DNA from: a virus
DNA length: 37,085 bases
Direction: 5' to 3' (one strand)
IMG/VR virus record: IMGVR_UViG_3300030329_003320
Location: 1-37,085 of that record
Part shown: positions 4,274-11,907 of the stretch, piece after piece
How positions within the stretch are numbered: the first letter of the stretch is position 1
Layout: every line of letters begins with the position of its first letter
The notes under the pieces: generated by a model
What the model was told of the DNA's origin: nothing
Database searches by the model: none
The model's input: the letters and a program-made list of their open reading frames with translations, nothing else
Translations under genes and position numbers: made by a program

Positions 4274-4468
4274 TTAACAACCCCCACCAAGTACATAGTG
4301 CAATAATCCAAACATTGCAAGCAATAAAATTACCGCAGCAATCCTTAAGCGTACTTTTGCACCGCTTTTCCTTTTCTCATAACTCTTCTTGGCCAAATAA
4401 CGCAATGCCGATTTACGTGCGAATCTCTTGGCTGCGTCTTGGTTGTTTTCGTGTCTATGGTTTTGCAT
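4274..4468 (-). CDS. Small basic single-pass membrane protein
   Basis: 64 residues from the ATG at 4468, which shares bases with the stop of the upstream gene (TAATG) and has a GGGGGAG site upstream. An in-frame ATG at 4483 is the alternative. The N-terminal two thirds is rich in Lys, Arg and His. One hydrophobic segment occupies about 43-62, giving a single membrane span at the C-terminus. Not recognised. Position between the replication and exonuclease genes suggests an early host-directed or membrane-tethering role, but this is unproven. Confidence 0.55.
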   Translation of the reverse strand: MQNHRHENNQDAAKRFARKSALRYLAKKSYEKRKSGAKVRLRIAAVILLLAMFGLLHYVLGGGC

Positions 4469-5052
4469 TACTCCCCCAACCATTGCTTTGCAGCTTGCGC
4501 TGTTTTTATCGTGTTAATGCCTAGCTTCGGCTTTGTGCCTTCTTCGCTAACAGCCATAAACGATTCTACGTGTTCGCCGTTTCGCATACAAAGCTCCAAG
4601 CCAAGGTATTTAGTTCCCTGCTTATTGTGTCCAAGATGGAAAGGTGATTTATGCATACCGTCTATAGCCGATATAAGCTCCGCTACGGTGTATCCCTGCC
4701 TAAGCCTATCCTGTATAGCCAAATAGGTCTTGCTCTTTGTGACGGACGGTTCTCCCCATCTAGAGAGCAAAGTCCTTAATGCCCTAGGGTGATAGGTTCT
4801 GTAATGCTCTATGACAGAACGAATATCTAGTTCCATAGAGGTATCGTTTTTGGCACGGTTCTTGCTATTATATATATTATTATTATATATATTATTATTA
4901 TTTAATTTATTATCTAATTCATTAGTAATATTAATACTTTTCTTTTGTCTTACTTTTCTTTTAGGCTTTTGCATTGCAACCGTCAATTCTTTGACGCTTA
5001 TCGTCAATTCGGCTATGGCCGCAGTGAGGTTGTTTATGTTTTTGTCGTCCAT
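4468..5052 (-). CDS. Replication protein with phage DnaD-like C-terminal domain
   Basis: 194 residues. An N-terminal helix (1-35) leads into a low-complexity Asn/Ile/Tyr linker (about 41-63). The C-terminal domain (about 75-180) has an Arg-Leu-Arg-Gln-Gly-Tyr-Thr helix, an Ala-Ile-Asp-Gly-Met-His segment, a Ser-Pro-Phe-His-Leu-Gly motif and a Lys-Tyr-Leu-Gly-Leu-Glu motif. This is the pattern of the conserved phage C-terminal domain of replisome organisers. The linker is encoded by an extremely AT-rich tract, which would suit an origin inside the initiator gene as in lambda O. A GAGGAA site precedes the start. Role inferred: origin binding or helicase loading. Confidence 0.7.
   Translation of the reverse strand: MDDKNINNLTAAIAELTISVKELTVAMQKPKRKVRQKKSINITNELDNKLNNNNIYNNNIYNSKNRAKNDTSMELDIRSVIEHYRTYHPRALRTLLSRWGEPSVTKSKTYLAIQDRLRQGYTVAELISAIDGMHKSPFHLGHNKQGTKYLGLELCMRNGEHVESFMAVSEEGTKPKLGINTIKTAQAAKQWLGE
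4863..4942. other. AT-rich tract with direct repeats, candidate replication origin
   Basis: About 80 bases almost wholly A and T, with two near-tandem copies of a ttatatatattatta-type repeat, inside the replication-protein gene. Such a tract melts easily. Initiator genes of several phages carry their origin in the coding sequence. No initiator-binding iterons were identified with confidence, so the assignment rests on composition and location. Confidence 0.4.
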
Positions 5053-5313: not shown

Positions 5314-5595
5314 TTACTCTTTTTCGTTTGCCTTTCTCACCTCATTGTCGAAGCTGTTTAGCTTTGACAGTAGGCCGTAGGATGGCTTTAGCGCCATTTC
5401 GTTAATGTGATGGGTCGCTTCTAGCAAGTACATCGAACCGTTATTATAGCTAACTAGGTTCTCGCCTCTCTGCATCCTATTTGACAGGCTATCGAGTAGG
5501 CTTTGCACAGTGTCAGCACTAAGCTTTACTAAGAATTCAAGCTCCTTAATGTGCTTTTCCTGAAGCTCTAGCAATTCTTGTTCGCTAATTCTCAT
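5314..5595 (-). CDS. Hypothetical early protein, helical
   Basis: 93 residues, not recognised. The first 45 residues form a strongly amphipathic Glu/Leu/Lys-rich helix, probably a coiled coil. A Tyr-Asn-Asn-Gly-Ser-Met-Tyr segment and a second helix follow. The start at 5595 is preceded by AAGGGAGGG, a strong ribosome binding site. The stop is followed within a few bases by a 7-bp hairpin. Confidence 0.6.
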   Translation of the reverse strand: MRISEQELLELQEKHIKELEFLVKLSADTVQSLLDSLSNRMQRGENLVSYNNGSMYLLEATHHINEMALKPSYGLLSKLNSFDNEVRKANEKE

Positions 5596-6263: not shown

Positions 6264-6770
6264 TTAAATGTTTAGTAAGCCTCTTAGCTTTTCTTGCGTT
6301 TTTTCGTCGTAAGCCCAAGGGCTATGTTCGTCTACAATTCGGCCCCATAGCTCTAGCGGGTCAAGGCCGCCGTCTCTTATATCCCTAGCGATGCTTGTAA
6401 TTAGGTCAATCGTTGACCTAGTGACTACGACTGCATCGCTGCAATGGGTTTGCTCTGCTGATATGCTCTTTCTCTCAAGTGTATCAATGACCTCTTCAAG
6501 TGCAGCCCGCACAAGTGCCACAAATCTAGCGGGGTGCAACTCTAGATAATCCACCCACATATCGGCATTATCACCGAACGTTTCAATGGCCATTTCCATT
6601 GATTTAGGGTCTCGGCTCCTCAGGTGGGGGTAATGTCCCGAGCAGGGAGTGATTTCTTCTAAGGCTTCCCGTGTCTCACTTGCCCATTCGATGCGCCTTT
6701 TTAAGGTTTTCTTGTCTAATTGTCCTGCTCTTGCGTAGGCGCTCAGAGCTTTTTCTTCTTTGCTATTCAT
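6264..6770 (-). CDS. Hypothetical early protein, first gene behind a sigma-54-like element
   Basis: 168 residues, not recognised. Helical, with a Cys-Ser-Gly-His-Tyr-Pro-His segment at about 43-49, a Trp-Val-Asp-Tyr-Leu-Glu-Leu-His motif at about 72-79 and a C-terminal helix. It is preceded by 130 bp without a gene, containing a hairpin and a perfect sigma-54-type -24/-12 element about 40 bp before the start. It is therefore probably the first gene of its own leftward transcript. A gap of 63 bp separates it from the next gene. Confidence 0.6.
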   Translation of the reverse strand: MNSKEEKALSAYARAGQLDKKTLKRRIEWASETREALEEITPCSGHYPHLRSRDPKSMEMAIETFGDNADMWVDYLELHPARFVALVRAALEEVIDTLERKSISAEQTHCSDAVVVTRSTIDLITSIARDIRDGGLDPLELWGRIVDEHSPWAYDEKTQEKLRGLLNI

Positions 6771-6806: not shown

Positions 6807-6823
6807 TGCAATCCTTGTGCCAA
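6807..6823 (-). promoter_or_regulatory. Sigma-54-type -24/-12 promoter element
   Basis: Leftward TTGGCAC-AAGGA-TTGCA has GG and GC exactly 10 bases apart, matching the sigma-54 consensus. The predicted start of transcription, about 12 bases past the GC, is near 6797, roughly 27 bases before the ATG at 6770. The copy before the gene starting at 7923 has the same distance. Confidence 0.65.
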
Positions 6824-7219: not shown

Positions 7220-7687
7220 TTATAAACTCCTAATGTTTTGCATTACTTCTAAAGCTACCTCTTTGGGGAGCGCATCTATCCCACCATAAGCCCCAACTCT
7301 AACCCTTCGCCTGCTTGCCTTGATTGCGTTCCATCCCTCAAGCCATTGTTCCTCCCTGTCGTGGGTTGACTTGTGTATGCTGTTAGGGGCTTGGTATACC
7401 CTAACGTAGCACTTTGTGACTTTCTTGGTCTCTTTGGCTTCCTTTGCTGCTTTTCTCCTAATGGCAGCCAAAAACGGACGCAAGGCACAGTTTCCACAGA
7501 CGCTCTCGTCACGTCCATCCTTGACCAATTCGGTTAACTTTTCGCGAGTATCCGGCAGAATCCAAAGCTGAACCATTGGCCCGATCTTAGTGTTAACGCT
7601 AGCCGATACAATGTTAGTAGCGACTAGCCTGATACGCTCCCCATTGTGGACGCTTTCGCCGCGCCAAAGAACATAAGTGCTTTGCAT
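7220..7687 (-). CDS. DUF7227-like phage protein, N-terminal half (split gene)
   Basis: 155 residues corresponding to the first half of a phage protein that is usually one chain: a Gly-Glu-Arg-Ile-Arg-Leu-Val-Ala strand, a Lys-Ile-Gly-Pro-Met-Val-Gln-Leu-Trp-Ile-Leu motif, Cys-Gly-Asn-Cys at about 64-67, Cys-Tyr-Val-Arg-Val-Tyr-Gln-Ala-Pro-Asn-Ser and Val-Arg-Val-Gly-Ala-Tyr-Gly at about 129-135. The stop is separated by one base from the ATG of the C-terminal half. The start at 7687 overlaps the upstream stop (TAATG) with a GGAGGAG site. Confidence 0.65.
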   Translation of the reverse strand: MQSTYVLWRGESVHNGERIRLVATNIVSASVNTKIGPMVQLWILPDTREKLTELVKDGRDESVCGNCALRPFLAAIRRKAAKEAKETKKVTKCYVRVYQAPNSIHKSTHDREEQWLEGWNAIKASRRRVRVGAYGGIDALPKEVALEVMQNIRSL

Positions 7688-7923
7688 TATAACTCCTCCT
7701 TTCCATAGGCATCTACCAAGCCCGCATAGATTGCCTTAGCGTTTTCACTTTCAGGCCCGTTGGATAGGGGTGATGGCGTGAAGTATTCGTTGATTCTGCA
7801 AAGTCTGTGGTACAGATGGCACCATTGCCCGTCCTCGTCGTGCGCCCAATGATATTGCCCGCCGTGGTAGTGGGCGCAAAACCAATAGTGCGCCTCAATT
7901 ATGTCGAACCTGTCAAAATACAT
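7687..7923 (-). CDS. Conserved small phage protein, first gene of the leftward block
   Basis: 78 residues from the ATG at 7923, chosen for the AGGAG site 6 bases upstream; the open frame reaches 8001 but crosses promoter sequence. It begins Met-Tyr-Phe-Asp-Arg-Phe-Asp-Ile-Ile-Glu-Ala, continues with Tyr-Trp-Phe and a His-Tyr-His-Gly-Gly segment, and has a Ser-Glu-Asn-Ala-Lys-Ala-Ile-Tyr motif near the end. This pattern recurs in small conserved phage proteins of unknown function. A sigma-54-type element ends 37 bp upstream. Confidence 0.65.
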   Translation of the reverse strand: MYFDRFDIIEAHYWFCAHYHGGQYHWAHDEDGQWCHLYHRLCRINEYFTPSPLSNGPESENAKAIYAGLVDAYGKEEL

Positions 7924-7959: not shown

Positions 7960-7976
7960 TGCAAGCCATGTGCCAA
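7960..7976 (-). promoter_or_regulatory. Sigma-54-type promoter element, nearest to the leftward block
   Basis: Leftward TTGGCAC-ATGGC-TTGCA, with GG and GC 10 bases apart. Predicted transcription start is near 7950, about 27 bases before the ATG at 7923. This is the best candidate for the working leftward promoter. Confidence 0.7.
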
Positions 7977-8065
7977 GTCTGCGCCTAATAAAAACAGGCA
8001 CTTAGAAGGGAGGTGGATGGGGCAATCTTCCCCATGGGTGGGACATTTGACACCACCTTGGAAAG

Positions 8066-8082
8066 ATGGCATAAAAGATGCA
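8066..8082 (+). promoter_or_regulatory. Sigma-54-type element
   Basis: Rightward ATGGCAT-AAAAG-ATGCA, GG-N10-GC spacing intact. It keeps the invariant dinucleotides but has AT in place of TT before the GC. Points toward the rightward block. Confidence 0.5.
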
Positions 8083-8104
8083 GAGCAGTAGGTAGCACAA
8101 AACA

Positions 8105-8121
8105 AGCAAGGAACGTGCCAA
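8105..8121 (-). promoter_or_regulatory. Sigma-54-type element
   Basis: Leftward TTGGCACG-TTCC-TTGCT, a very close match to the sigma-54 consensus with GG-N10-GC spacing. About 180 bp upstream of the first leftward gene. Confidence 0.55.
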
Positions 8122-8183
8122 GTGATAGTCAAAATGTTGACAAAAAGTCTAACGATAATGTCGGAAATATGGCGCACAGAAAC

Positions 8184-8200
8184 TTGGCATAAAAACTGCA
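8184..8200 (+). promoter_or_regulatory. Sigma-54-type element
   Basis: Rightward TTGGCAT-AAAAA-CTGCA, GG-N10-GC spacing intact, with CT rather than TT before the GC. Confidence 0.5.
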
Positions 8201-8222
8201 TAACAACCCTACCGCAACCGCT

Positions 8223-8239
8223 TGCAAGCCCCGTACCAA
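8223..8239 (-). promoter_or_regulatory. Sigma-54-type element (variant)
   Basis: Leftward TTGGTAC-GGGGC-TTGCA. Spacing is exact; GGTA replaces the usual GGCA. Confidence 0.45.
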
Positions 8240-8251
8240 CCTTTGTACCCA

Positions 8252-8268
8252 TGCAAGAGTCATGCCAA
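8252..8268 (-). promoter_or_regulatory. Sigma-54-type element
   Basis: Leftward TTGGCAT-GACTC-TTGCA, full match at GG, GC and flanking TTGCA, with exact spacing. Confidence 0.55.
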
Positions 8269-8302
8269 AAACGAAAAACGCACGACACCCCTACGCATTG
8301 TA

Positions 8303-8319
8303 TGCAAAAACCGTGCCAA
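8303..8319 (-). promoter_or_regulatory. Sigma-54-type element
   Basis: Leftward TTGGCACG-GTTT-TTGCA, a near-ideal sigma-54 sequence including the CACG after GG and a T-rich spacer. Confidence 0.6.
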
Positions 8320-8327
8320 GGTAGTCG

Positions 8328-8344
8328 TTGGCATAGAACTTGCA
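8328..8344 (+). promoter_or_regulatory. Sigma-54-type element, first of a tandem pair
   Basis: Rightward TTGGCAT-AGAAC-TTGCA. It is followed at an 18-bp period by an almost identical copy (8346-8362), so the pair looks like a local duplication. Confidence 0.6.
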
Positions 8345-8345
8345 T

Positions 8346-8362
8346 ATGGCATAGTACTTGCA
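8346..8362 (+). promoter_or_regulatory. Sigma-54-type element, second of a tandem pair
   Basis: Rightward ATGGCAT-AGTAC-TTGCA. The last rightward element before the rightward block. A transcript from here would have a leader of about 155 bases before the ATG at 8531. Confidence 0.6.
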
Positions 8363-8368
8363 CCCCCC

Positions 8369-8385
8369 TGCAAGACGCGTGCCAA
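8369..8385 (-). promoter_or_regulatory. Sigma-54-type element
   Basis: Leftward TTGGCACG-CGTC-TTGCA, near-ideal match with exact spacing. It lies back to back with the rightward pair at 8328-8362. Confidence 0.6.
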
Positions 8386-8401
8386 TCAAGAATCGTGCCA
8401 A
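8386..8401 (-). promoter_or_regulatory. Imperfect sigma-54-type element
   Basis: Leftward TTGGCACG-ATTC-TTGA. The -24 half is perfect but the -12 dinucleotide is GA instead of GC. It looks like a decayed or weak copy immediately next to the element at 8369-8385. Confidence 0.35.
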
Positions 8402-8530: not shown

Positions 8531-8689
8531 ATGGTCATGAAGAAAGTTAAAAAAGGCTATAAGAACTACTCGAAAAAGACAGGTAAGGCTTTATCTAAGA
8601 AGCCTATGAGCAAAAGAAAGGCTGCGAGGCAGTTAGCAGCAGTAGAAATTAGTAAAAAGCTAAGAAAGGGCTTAAGCTATGGAAAATAA
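8531..8689 (+). CDS. Small very basic phage protein (52 aa)
   Basis: 52 residues, with more than a third Lys or Arg. It contains Lys-Lys-Gly-Tyr-Lys-Asn-Tyr-Ser-Lys-Lys and Lys-Pro-Met-Ser-Lys-Arg-Lys-Ala-Ala-Arg-Gln-Leu-Ala. A Lys-Pro-Met-Ser/Thr-Lys-Lys-Ala plus Gln-Leu-Ala-Ala-Val-Glu pattern occurs in small basic proteins of many phages, next to head genes or in virions. Start ATG 8531 follows TTGGAGC; an in-frame ATG lies at 8537. The stop overlaps the next gene's start by 11 bp. DNA binding is inferred from charge only. Confidence 0.65.
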   Translation: MVMKKVKKGYKNYSKKTGKALSKKPMSKRKAARQLAAVEISKKLRKGLSYGK

Positions 8690-8888: not shown

Positions 8889-9270
8889 GGGCAAAGAGTA
8901 TAACGACGATACTCGTGTGGCGAGGGCATCGACTCAGCACCGACTACAGGCTGCTAGAGTGGTGCCTTCTTCACAAGGGCTAGTTTCTGACTTCATGTCC
9001 TTGGTTCACTTGGAAATGACGAAGTTAGCATCAAGCATAGGCTTTGAGGCGGAGTGCTTGGACGAGAGTAAGTCAAAACACTTATCTAGACTCATAGCCT
9101 CACTAGACAGGCTAGTTAAGATCGAGAGTGACGTTCGCTCACAAAGCGAGGTCGATAGGTTGGACGACAAACAACTAGAGTCGAAGGTCAAACACGCCTT
9201 AAAAGCTTTGAAGATTGATGATAAGGAAATTAAAAACTTGATTGAGAAATCACGAGAGCAAGACGAGTAA
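8854..9270 (+). CDS. Hypothetical protein, possible small terminase-like
   Basis: 138 residues if translation starts at the TTG at 8854, which has AGAGG 6 bases upstream. A later start such as ATG 8995 is possible. The C-terminal half is helical with Ser-Leu-Asp-Arg-Leu-Val-Lys-Ile-Glu, a pattern seen in some phage small terminase subunits and in unrelated helical proteins. It is upstream of the large terminase, but five genes lie between. The small-terminase idea is therefore weak. No helix-turn-helix was clearly seen. Confidence 0.5.
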   Translation: MKKNQLTPLPNKGKEYNDDTRVARASTQHRLQAARVVPSSQGLVSDFMSLVHLEMTKLASSIGFEAECLDESKSKHLSRLIASLDRLVKIESDVRSQSEVDRLDDKQLESKVKHALKALKIDDKEIKNLIEKSREQDE

Positions 9271-10257: not shown

Positions 10258-10474
10258 GGACTACTCGGTAAACGGAATAATGATAACAGACTGCCGTGAG
10301 AGGTCGCATTCATACAATATGCAGGGGATTGCTAGCATGACGGAGCGAGAGGCTTATAGCATTCGCAATCAGATCGAGGGCAAGATGCCCGCTGCACTAA
10401 AAGACATAATATGCCTAGTTAAAACAACTATCGGCGGAACCGTAGAGAGAATATGCCTAAAGAACAATCGATGA
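10247..10474 (+). CDS. Hypothetical protein (75 aa)
   Basis: 75 residues, not recognised. It has an alpha/beta pattern with an Ile-Met-Ile-Thr-Asp-Cys strand and a Met-Thr-Glu-Arg-Glu-Ala-Tyr-Ser-Ile helix. It overlaps the small gene before it by 11 bp and the large terminase by 22 bp, so it lies within the packaging operon. A regulatory or small-terminase-like role is possible but unsupported. Confidence 0.55.
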   Translation: MRTRDYSVNGIMITDCRERSHSYNMQGIASMTEREAYSIRNQIEGKMPAALKDIICLVKTTIGGTVERICLKNNR

Positions 10475-11907
10475 ATCCCATTGAAGCCCGTGAGGTTGTC
10501 AAGGAGTACATAAAGCGGTTTGGCGAGCCTCCCGTGCAGAAGAAGCGTATTAAGGCTACGGAGCGCAGCACTCAGTTCTTCAAAGACTGCTTTGAGGAGC
10601 AGATCAAATTCATCAACGACAAGAGCAAGCTCAAGACTGCGCTATGTTCGCGTAGAGCGGGGAAAACACACTCGGCTGCTGTTTACCTGCTAAAAGAAGC
10701 ACTAGAGAACCCCGATAGTGAGTGCGCCTACATCGCACTAACTAGAATTAATGCAAAACGTGTCATGTGGCCCAAGCTCAAGCAGTTGGATCGACAATAC
10801 AGCATGAACATAAACTTCAACAATTCGGAACTCACCGCTTACCTGCCCAATGGTAGCGTAATCTATCTTACAGGGGCTAACGATCAGGCCGATATCGACA
10901 AGCTTCGTGGTAGCGCATTCGTACTCATTATTATTGATGAGTGTGCGTCCTTTGGCCCGCACATGGATGAGCTAGTAGAAGAGGTATTGGAACCTACCCT
11001 TGTAGATCATGATGGTACTATGTGTCTTATCGGGACACCCAATGCTGCGTGTACGGGAATATTTTACCGTGCCACGACAGACCCCGACTCTGACTATAGT
11101 AACCATCATTGGACGCTTTTAGAGAACCCGCACATCCCTCACGCGCAGGATTGGCTAGACAAGAGGATGAAACGCAGGAATTGGGACAACGAGCATCCTG
11201 TCTATCTACGCGAGTGGAGGGGGAGATGGATTAGGTCGGCAGATAGTCTTGTTTATAAATTCAACGAGACTATTAATCTTTATGACTCCCTCCCCGTTTT
11301 GGATTATGATTTCGAGTACATACTTGGAGTGGATTTGGGCTTCAACGATGCAACTGCCTTTACTATTTGTGCCTTTAACAGGTATCTTCCTACCCTCTAT
11401 TTGGTCTACGAAATGAAAAAGGTCGGGATGATTCCGGCAGAGATCGCTGACCACATTAAGCACCTGAGCAACTCTCATAAATTTGTCCGTATTGTGATGG
11501 ATACGGGCGGTCTTGGCAAGAGCATCGCGGAGGAGTTTCGCATCCGTTACAACATCCCCGTCCACGCCGCAAGCAAACATGACAAATTTAGCTACATTGA
11601 GCTTCTGAACTCCGACCTCCGCTCCGGGTTCGTCAAAGTCCCACCGGACTCCTCTATCATTGATGAATGGAACCTCCTGCAATGGAGCGAAAATCAGAAA
11701 ACCGAGGATAAGCGTTTTGAAAACCATTTATGTGATGCCTTTCTTTATGCGTGGCGTGAGTCCAAACACTATTGTAGCGAGGAATTACCCTACTCGCCAA
11801 GGTACGGAACGAAGGAATATTGGGAAAAAGTGTGGGATGAATGGGAGACCGAGGAGGGTCAAAGAATTGAAAAACTCAAACGCATGGAATGGTGGGAGGT
11901 TTTATAA
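10453..11907 (+). CDS. terL: Terminase large subunit (ATPase and nuclease)
   Basis: 484 residues, normal for the family. The packaging ATPase shows Walker A Ser-Arg-Arg-Ala-Gly-Lys-Thr at 66-72, Walker B Leu-Ile-Ile-Ile-Asp-Glu ending at 163, and the coupling motif Ile-Gly-Thr-Pro-Asn at about 193-197. The C-terminal RNase H-like nuclease shows Gly-Val-Asp-Leu-Gly (Asp294), Met-Asp-Thr-Gly (Asp350) and Leu-Cys-Asp-Ala-Phe (Asp428). It pumps DNA into the prohead through the portal and cuts the concatemer. A second possible start (Met7) lies just inside. The stop overlaps the next start (TAATG). Confidence 0.95.
   Translation: MPKEQSMNPIEAREVVKEYIKRFGEPPVQKKRIKATERSTQFFKDCFEEQIKFINDKSKLKTALCSRRAGKTHSAAVYLLKEALENPDSECAYIALTRINAKRVMWPKLKQLDRQYSMNINFNNSELTAYLPNGSVIYLTGANDQADIDKLRGSAFVLIIIDECASFGPHMDELVEEVLEPTLVDHDGTMCLIGTPNAACTGIFYRATTDPDSDYSNHHWTLLENPHIPHAQDWLDKRMKRRNWDNEHPVYLREWRGRWIRSADSLVYKFNETINLYDSLPVLDYDFEYILGVDLGFNDATAFTICAFNRYLPTLYLVYEMKKVGMIPAEIADHIKHLSNSHKFVRIVMDTGGLGKSIAEEFRIRYNIPVHAASKHDKFSYIELLNSDLRSGFVKVPPDSSIIDEWNLLQWSENQKTEDKRFENHLCDAFLYAWRESKHYCSEELPYSPRYGTKEYWEKVWDEWETEEGQRIEKLKRMEWWEVL

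Follow-up and report, generated by a model that had tools for sequence, protein, structure and literature searches.

The window analysed here is a complete IMG/VR virus record of 37,085 bases, and it raises the question of why a phage control region should be packed with elements resembling sigma-54 promoters, and of what protein would read them. Many bacteria rely on sigma-54 to control nitrogen use, motility and the phage-shock response, and the polymerase that carries it is inactive until opened by an ATP-driven activator; phages are, to our knowledge, not known to rely on sigma-54 (RpoN). Leftward genes, including those for a Sak4-like annealing protein and an exonuclease, lie left of ~7.9 kb, and rightward genes, among them terminase, portal and major head protein, lie right of 8.5 kb. 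The element array at 7960-8401 is placed between these two modules, in a divergent control region, as a first-pass annotation of the sequence had recognised. No DNA match to phage records was obtained for the window, its protein relatives are distant, and no known RNA family (Rfam) was identified either in it or in L035 (147-kb virus record G011). The relevant features are:

4850..4866, plus strand: solitary sigma-54-type element TTGGCACGGTTCTTGCT, ending TTGCT, within and antisense to ORF 4468-5052
6807..6823, minus strand: predicted solitary sigma-54-type promoter TTGGCACAAGGATTGCA, exact, found with the ChIP matrix, upstream of ORF 6264-6770, predicted start ~6796
7687..7923, minus strand: gene 1 of the leftward module, starting at ATG 7923 and not at the listed GTG
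7960..7976, minus strand: sigma-54-type element TTGGCACATGGCTTGCA, exact, gene-proximal and probably the leftward-module promoter, predicted start ~7949
8066..8082, plus strand: weak sigma-54-type element ATGGCATAAAAGATGCA, two mismatches with GG-N10-GC intact, matrix score 11.5
8105..8121, minus strand: sigma-54-type element TTGGCACGTTCCTTGCT, found with the consensus-weighted and Salmonella ChIP matrices
8184..8200, plus strand: sigma-54-type element TTGGCATAAAAACTGCA, found with the consensus-weighted and Salmonella ChIP matrices
8223..8239, minus strand: sigma-54-type element TTGGTACGGGGCTTGCA, found with the consensus-weighted matrix
8252..8268, minus strand: sigma-54-type element TTGGCATGACTCTTGCA, exact, found with the Salmonella ChIP matrix
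8303..8319, minus strand: sigma-54-type element TTGGCACGGTTTTTGCA, exact, top score of the window, found with both matrices, divergent from the 8328 element with a gap of 8
8328..8344, plus strand: sigma-54-type element TTGGCATAGAACTTGCA, exact, found with both matrices
8346..8362, plus strand: sigma-54-type element ATGGCATAGTACTTGCA, found with the consensus-weighted matrix, 18 bp after the 8328 element
8369..8385, minus strand: sigma-54-type element TTGGCACGCGTCTTGCA, exact, found with the consensus-weighted matrix
8385..8401, minus strand: element with an altered -12 box TTGGCACGATTCTTGAT, GC changed to GA (TTGAT), in tandem at 16-bp spacing and overlapping the next -24 box
8531..8689, plus strand: first small gene of the rightward (virion) module
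10453..11907, plus strand: terminase large subunit, marker of the virion module (PHROG 2, E 3e-40)

Direct reading of the sequence confirmed ten elements within 7960-8401, six leftward and four rightward, each with exactly 10 bases between GG and GC, together with the one further element whose -12 dinucleotide is damaged (8385-8401). Their earlier description as ten perfect copies of TTGGCAY-N5-TTGCA was overstated: only five in the interval are exact (7960, 8252, 8303 and 8369 leftward, 8328 rightward), and the other five differ from this string by 1-2 bases (TTGCT at the end of the 8105 element, CTGCA in that at 8184, GGTAC in that at 8223, ATGG at the start of that at 8346, and two changes in that at 8066). 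The damaged box need not be dead, because TTGAT is also present in one Salmonella sigma-54 ChIP site (PMC3844500), and it recurs in two terminase relatives of the phage (L010 and L013) as tandem 16-18-bp repeats. Outside the array there are two strong elements, at 6807-6823 (minus strand) and 4850-4866 (plus strand), the second of which may be a coding coincidence. A long AT-rich repeat follows this second element, which is kept in relative G001 at 8987 (minus strand).

Comparison with shuffled sequence had been proposed as a check on the array, and enrichment was found: the window contains the exact string 6 times, where dinucleotide shuffles yield 0.01 copies, and a consensus-weighted matrix identifies 10 sites in the region against 0.10. 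When up to two mismatches were allowed in a 480-bp region, 11 matches were obtained at a spacer of 5, against 0-3 at the other spacers from 0 to 11, and among the matches listed for 120 array contigs a spacer of 5 accounts for 454, versus 0-4 for any other; a spacer of 5 is required. A further matrix was built from the 29 Salmonella sigma-54 ChIP sites printed in PMC3844500 and, because of this origin, does not depend on the phage finding. At a threshold passed by 27 of the 29 training sites, it identified 8 window sites, 6 of them within the array, against 0.15 in simulated sequence. At positions not used in the search, 648 phage sites and the Salmonella set show near-identical base use, with A/G at position 7 of 0.30/0.61 versus 0.34/0.66 and A/T at positions 16-17. 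The upstream flanks of the sites show an A/R-rich mrNrY, which is part of the published sigma-54 consensus. The elements hence combine GG and GC 10 bp apart, set in the flanking consensus, with agreement with experimentally bound sites at every comparable position of the 29-site matrix, and the sigma-54-type identity originally assigned to them is upheld. This is strong evidence that the sites would be recognised by sigma-54 or by a protein of the same specificity, and recognition of the array sites by the host sigma-54 appears very likely on these comparisons.

A phage-encoded sigma-54 or activator was looked for and not found: the window contains neither a sigma-54 gene (PF00309) nor an AAA+ activator gene, and 50 array records, many of them fragments, contain neither a sigma-54 DNA-binding domain (PF04552) nor an AAA+ activator gene. 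No binding site for an activator was identified either. No protein family besides terminase is widely shared across the array phages, and the reader of the motif is therefore probably a host factor. Of 24 bacterial genomes in which tandem sites occur, 22 encode RpoN, a figure that is circumstantial as to the phage hosts.

The placement of the sites relative to genes separates two of them from the rest. Start mapping in E. coli locates transcription starts 19 bp downstream of the motif centre, which corresponds to 11 nt past the 17-mer (PMC4591121). For both the 7960 and the 6807 leftward sites, an ATG with a Shine-Dalgarno sequence lies 36 bp past the site (AGGAG and ATG 7923 in the case of 7960), and the two share CATAA at the predicted start, ACATAA beginning at or next to +1, as also in relative L013. 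This relative presents the same placement at 5533 (minus strand, 33 bp) and 6015 (plus strand, 45 bp), and its site at 8128 (plus strand) precedes the rightward module. From this geometry, the 7960 and 6807 sites are likely promoters. None of the remaining array sites has such placement, and the rightward module of the window is without a well-placed sigma-54 promoter, one being found in relatives L009, L010 and L013. The first-pass annotation had raised the use of RpoN for main promoters; promoter placement singles out only 7960 in the array and 6807 outside it. An automatic ORF-based check that every site points at a start codon gave no useful answer, as the arrays are open reading frames in their own right and genes had been called crudely. 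The suggestion that the same array might be found in related phage genomes proved correct: three terminase relatives (L010, L012 and L013, 85% identity) keep the arrangement while single sites turn over, and in a further terminase relative, L009, one site is kept. A GP88-family gene (PF17338, E 2e-28, at 6617-7480 in L013) adjoins the array in L012 and L013 and is absent from that position in the window.

Independent support for the sigma-54 reading came from a comparable layout in a 383-kb contig of 28% GC (JAIXLO010000160.1) that is binned with a Chitinophagales MAG, encodes a tail sheath and a DnaE-type polymerase, and is jumbo-phage-like. Of its 36 sigma-54-type sites, 31 share the strand of the genes, and other spacers yield 0-2 sites. 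The contig also contains 24 copies of a 16-nt leader, GGATCGCATCTWAGTA, each of them on the gene strand, and 17 of these copies lie 12 nt past a -24/-12 box with genes next, a count that includes four boxes scored by eye in which a substitution was missed by the search pattern. The seven leader copies without such boxes, at 13-294 kb, must use another promoter type. In a six-box cluster at 312.3-312.6 kb, the leader is present only at the gene-proximal box, and the design of the contig, with one placed promoter and an upstream cluster, appears from its sequence to be the same as that of the window. The Chitinophagales bin encodes RpoN and activators, none of which is found on the 383-kb contig itself. 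The region from 297 to 363 kb is rich in predicted sigma-54-type promoters with the leader.

The explanation we favour, and consider more likely than not, is that the elements are recognition sites of host sigma-54 (RpoN), that the gene-proximal ones act as promoters, and that the array upstream of them serves to load, hold or titrate sigma-54. The gene-proximal sites (7960 and 6807 in the window; 5533, 6015 and 8128 in L013) would be fired by the host's sigma-54 polymerase together with an activator of the host. The other sites at 8066-8401, rather than being independent promoters, would form an upstream array in both orientations, concentrating sigma-54, either as free sigma or as closed-complex polymerase, beside the promoters of the divergent modules. 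Once phage DNA replicates, the array might also pull sigma-54 off host genes. That RpoN recognises the sites in the cell, that a host activator is used and that the array has a loading or titration role is what we infer; charging of neighbouring promoters and titration of sigma-54 are each plausible, together they are reasonably probable, and titration by the array is put forward as a proposal only.

The arrays are not confined to this phage. Collections were scanned for tandem pairs, defined as two exact sites within 30 bp, which were present in at least 120 viral (IMG/VR) contigs, and divergent pairs were found in 57 viral contigs; the reversed pattern gave no match in the viral collection. 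Array regions were grouped into 65 clusters with no mutual DNA similarity at the threshold used, a number to be read as an upper limit because many of the contigs are fragments. Among 126 loci whose terminase belongs to this broad family, sites number 605 upstream of that gene and 23 downstream, the array being mostly 1-2.4 kb upstream, and 417 of the 605 upstream sites point away from the terminase (31% toward). In the largest group (110 loci), the DNA polymerase is 50% identical to that of Pelagibacter phage HTVC103P. No array was found in HTVC103P or in 11 other annotated records, the 12 comprising Pelagibacter, Roseobacter, Vibrio, Aeromonas and Sinorhizobium phages, HMO-2011 and others; 11 of them present no site and HMO-2011 a single isolated one. 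Calling an array-bearing phage unusual fits the 12 annotated records checked, yet such arrays are common in uncultivated phages, and the groups bearing them are probably largely marine. Since they occur in uncultivated groups and are absent from those 12 records, the arrays may have escaped notice; no report of sigma-54 arrays in phages was found in the open-access literature, which yielded sigma-54 promoter tools, rpoN receptor effects and phage inhibitors of polymerase.

The array might instead be mainly a sponge, in which replicated DNA sequesters sigma-54 or its polymerase and turns off host sigma-54 genes, with little direct role in transcription. Many interleaved sites would suit such a decoy (15 in the main cluster of L035, and elsewhere up to 12 strict sites per 500 bp), stable inactive closed complexes typify the sigma-54 polymerase (PMC2680985, PMC4591121), and 257 Gb of bacterial genomes gave tandem pairs at 26 loci, fewer than the at least 120 viral contigs. 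The proximal sites, however, are clearly placed as promoters, and a biased orientation and a fixed location in the control region would be needless for a pure decoy, which makes this reading rather unlikely. In L035, strict and relaxed sites are dense over ~0.8 kb at ~15.2-16.0 kb, with others scattered in the first 16 kb. Our favoured account of host sigma-54 sites combining promoters and an upstream array suggests that array phages may depend on, or soak up, host sigma-54. Its fullest form is a widespread and so far overlooked phage class with dense, helically phased arrays between gene modules; sigma-54, free or within polymerase, would coat these arrays, which would charge phage promoters and, after replication, deplete the host of sigma-54 in a takeover mediated by DNA only. 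This form is a tentative possibility.

If all ten elements were ordinary sigma-54 promoters of both modules, with redundancy providing strength, the quality of the motifs would be accounted for, as would the one-directional arrays aimed at one module in 22 of the 65 clusters and the predominance of upstream sites pointing away from the terminase. Sigma-54 polymerase with its activator, however, contacts DNA from about -31 to +11 (PMC2680985), and because array sites lie 16-18 bp apart, start to start, or oppose one another, they cannot all hold holoenzyme at once. At distances of 1-18 bp, most array sites either overlap or oppose a neighbour, which leaves too little room for two RNA polymerase holoenzymes. 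Within the array, 7960 alone has a start codon close by and a start-site motif, the cluster in the jumbo-phage-like contig bears its leader on the gene-proximal member alone, and in the largest array-phage group the rightward, structural-side module has a sigma-70-like promoter, contrary to the idea that the elements are the main promoters. We regard this explanation as unlikely.

The spacing between sites was analysed using one representative for each of the 65 clusters. Gaps between divergent sites fall at 4-8, 14-18 and 24-28 bp, and those between convergent sites mostly at 1-6, 11-15 and 23-27 bp, with a phase concentration at 10.5 bp (R of 0.59 for divergent and 0.49 for convergent sites) that was rarely or never matched when gaps were jittered; tandem sites show weaker 10.5-bp phasing. 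Location on one face of the helix suggests contact between bound proteins, although descent by duplication within lineages could lie behind part of the phasing. Holoenzyme cannot occupy both members of a convergent pair that are 1-6 bp apart; something besides simultaneous promoter use must account for these, and for convergent pairs we infer a bound species smaller than holoenzyme, such as free sigma-54. The tight packing of the sites and the helical phasing between opposed ones would also fit a small cooperative protein, and the array might be the operator of a phage or host protein with sigma-54-like specificity, serving as a regulatory or a partition/replication site; an enrichment of TTGACA and of exact sigma-70-type promoters in the surroundings of arrays also speaks for it. 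Against it, the degenerate positions agree with ChIP-mapped sigma-54 sites, the proximal sites combine promoter geometry with +1 leaders, terminase is the sole protein family shared among array phages, and the 50 array records hold no gene with a sigma-54 DNA-binding domain, so that we find it distinctly unlikely. A chance or low-complexity origin has a negligible probability, being ruled out by the shuffle, spacer and reversed-pattern controls and opposed by conservation in relatives.

Relative to known systems, the phage sites share with bacterial sigma-54 promoters the -24 GG and -12 GC 10 bp apart, the YTGGCACG-N4-TTGCW consensus including its degenerate positions, and, for the gene-proximal sites, a predicted start 11 nt past the 17-mer followed by leader and gene, but bacterial promoters are usually single or paired, whereas the phage sites form dense two-way arrays. 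Intragenic, non-promoter sigma-54 sites have been mapped in E. coli and Salmonella, with repression, interference and the guiding of polymerase to a nearby promoter among their suggested roles (PMC4591121, PMC3844500); these too are good motifs, some of which have no link to a gene start, but they are scattered singly in host genes, while the phage sites cluster in control regions. T7 Ocr (PMC7064336) and Xp10 P7 (PMC5053324) also exemplify phage interplay with host polymerase or sigma factors, although they act via a phage protein, and the candidate agent in array phages is a DNA sequence. Iteron, operator and centromere arrays similarly present many phased copies of a short motif in an intergenic control region; unlike them, the phage motif is the sigma-54 promoter consensus and its copies double as predicted gene-proximal promoters. 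If phages are indeed built on sigma-54 sites, infection would be tied to signals read by host activators, and such phages might dampen the responses of the host. In host prediction, the motif by itself could help by pointing to rpoN-bearing bacteria.

Prophage and MAG matches were discarded as host evidence, as the 26 bacterial matches mix ordinary host double sites with phage-like contigs. Tandem sites do occur in bacterial chromosomes too, since five Candidatus Poribacteria genomes share identical triple tandem sigma-54-type sites. Around the phage arrays, many members of the largest group (e.g. L128, L038, L054) have a conserved TTGACAAGTGTGTG at 4-59 bp past their last leftward site, and there is an enrichment of G-rich runs and of DnaA-box-like heptamers in the vicinity of arrays.
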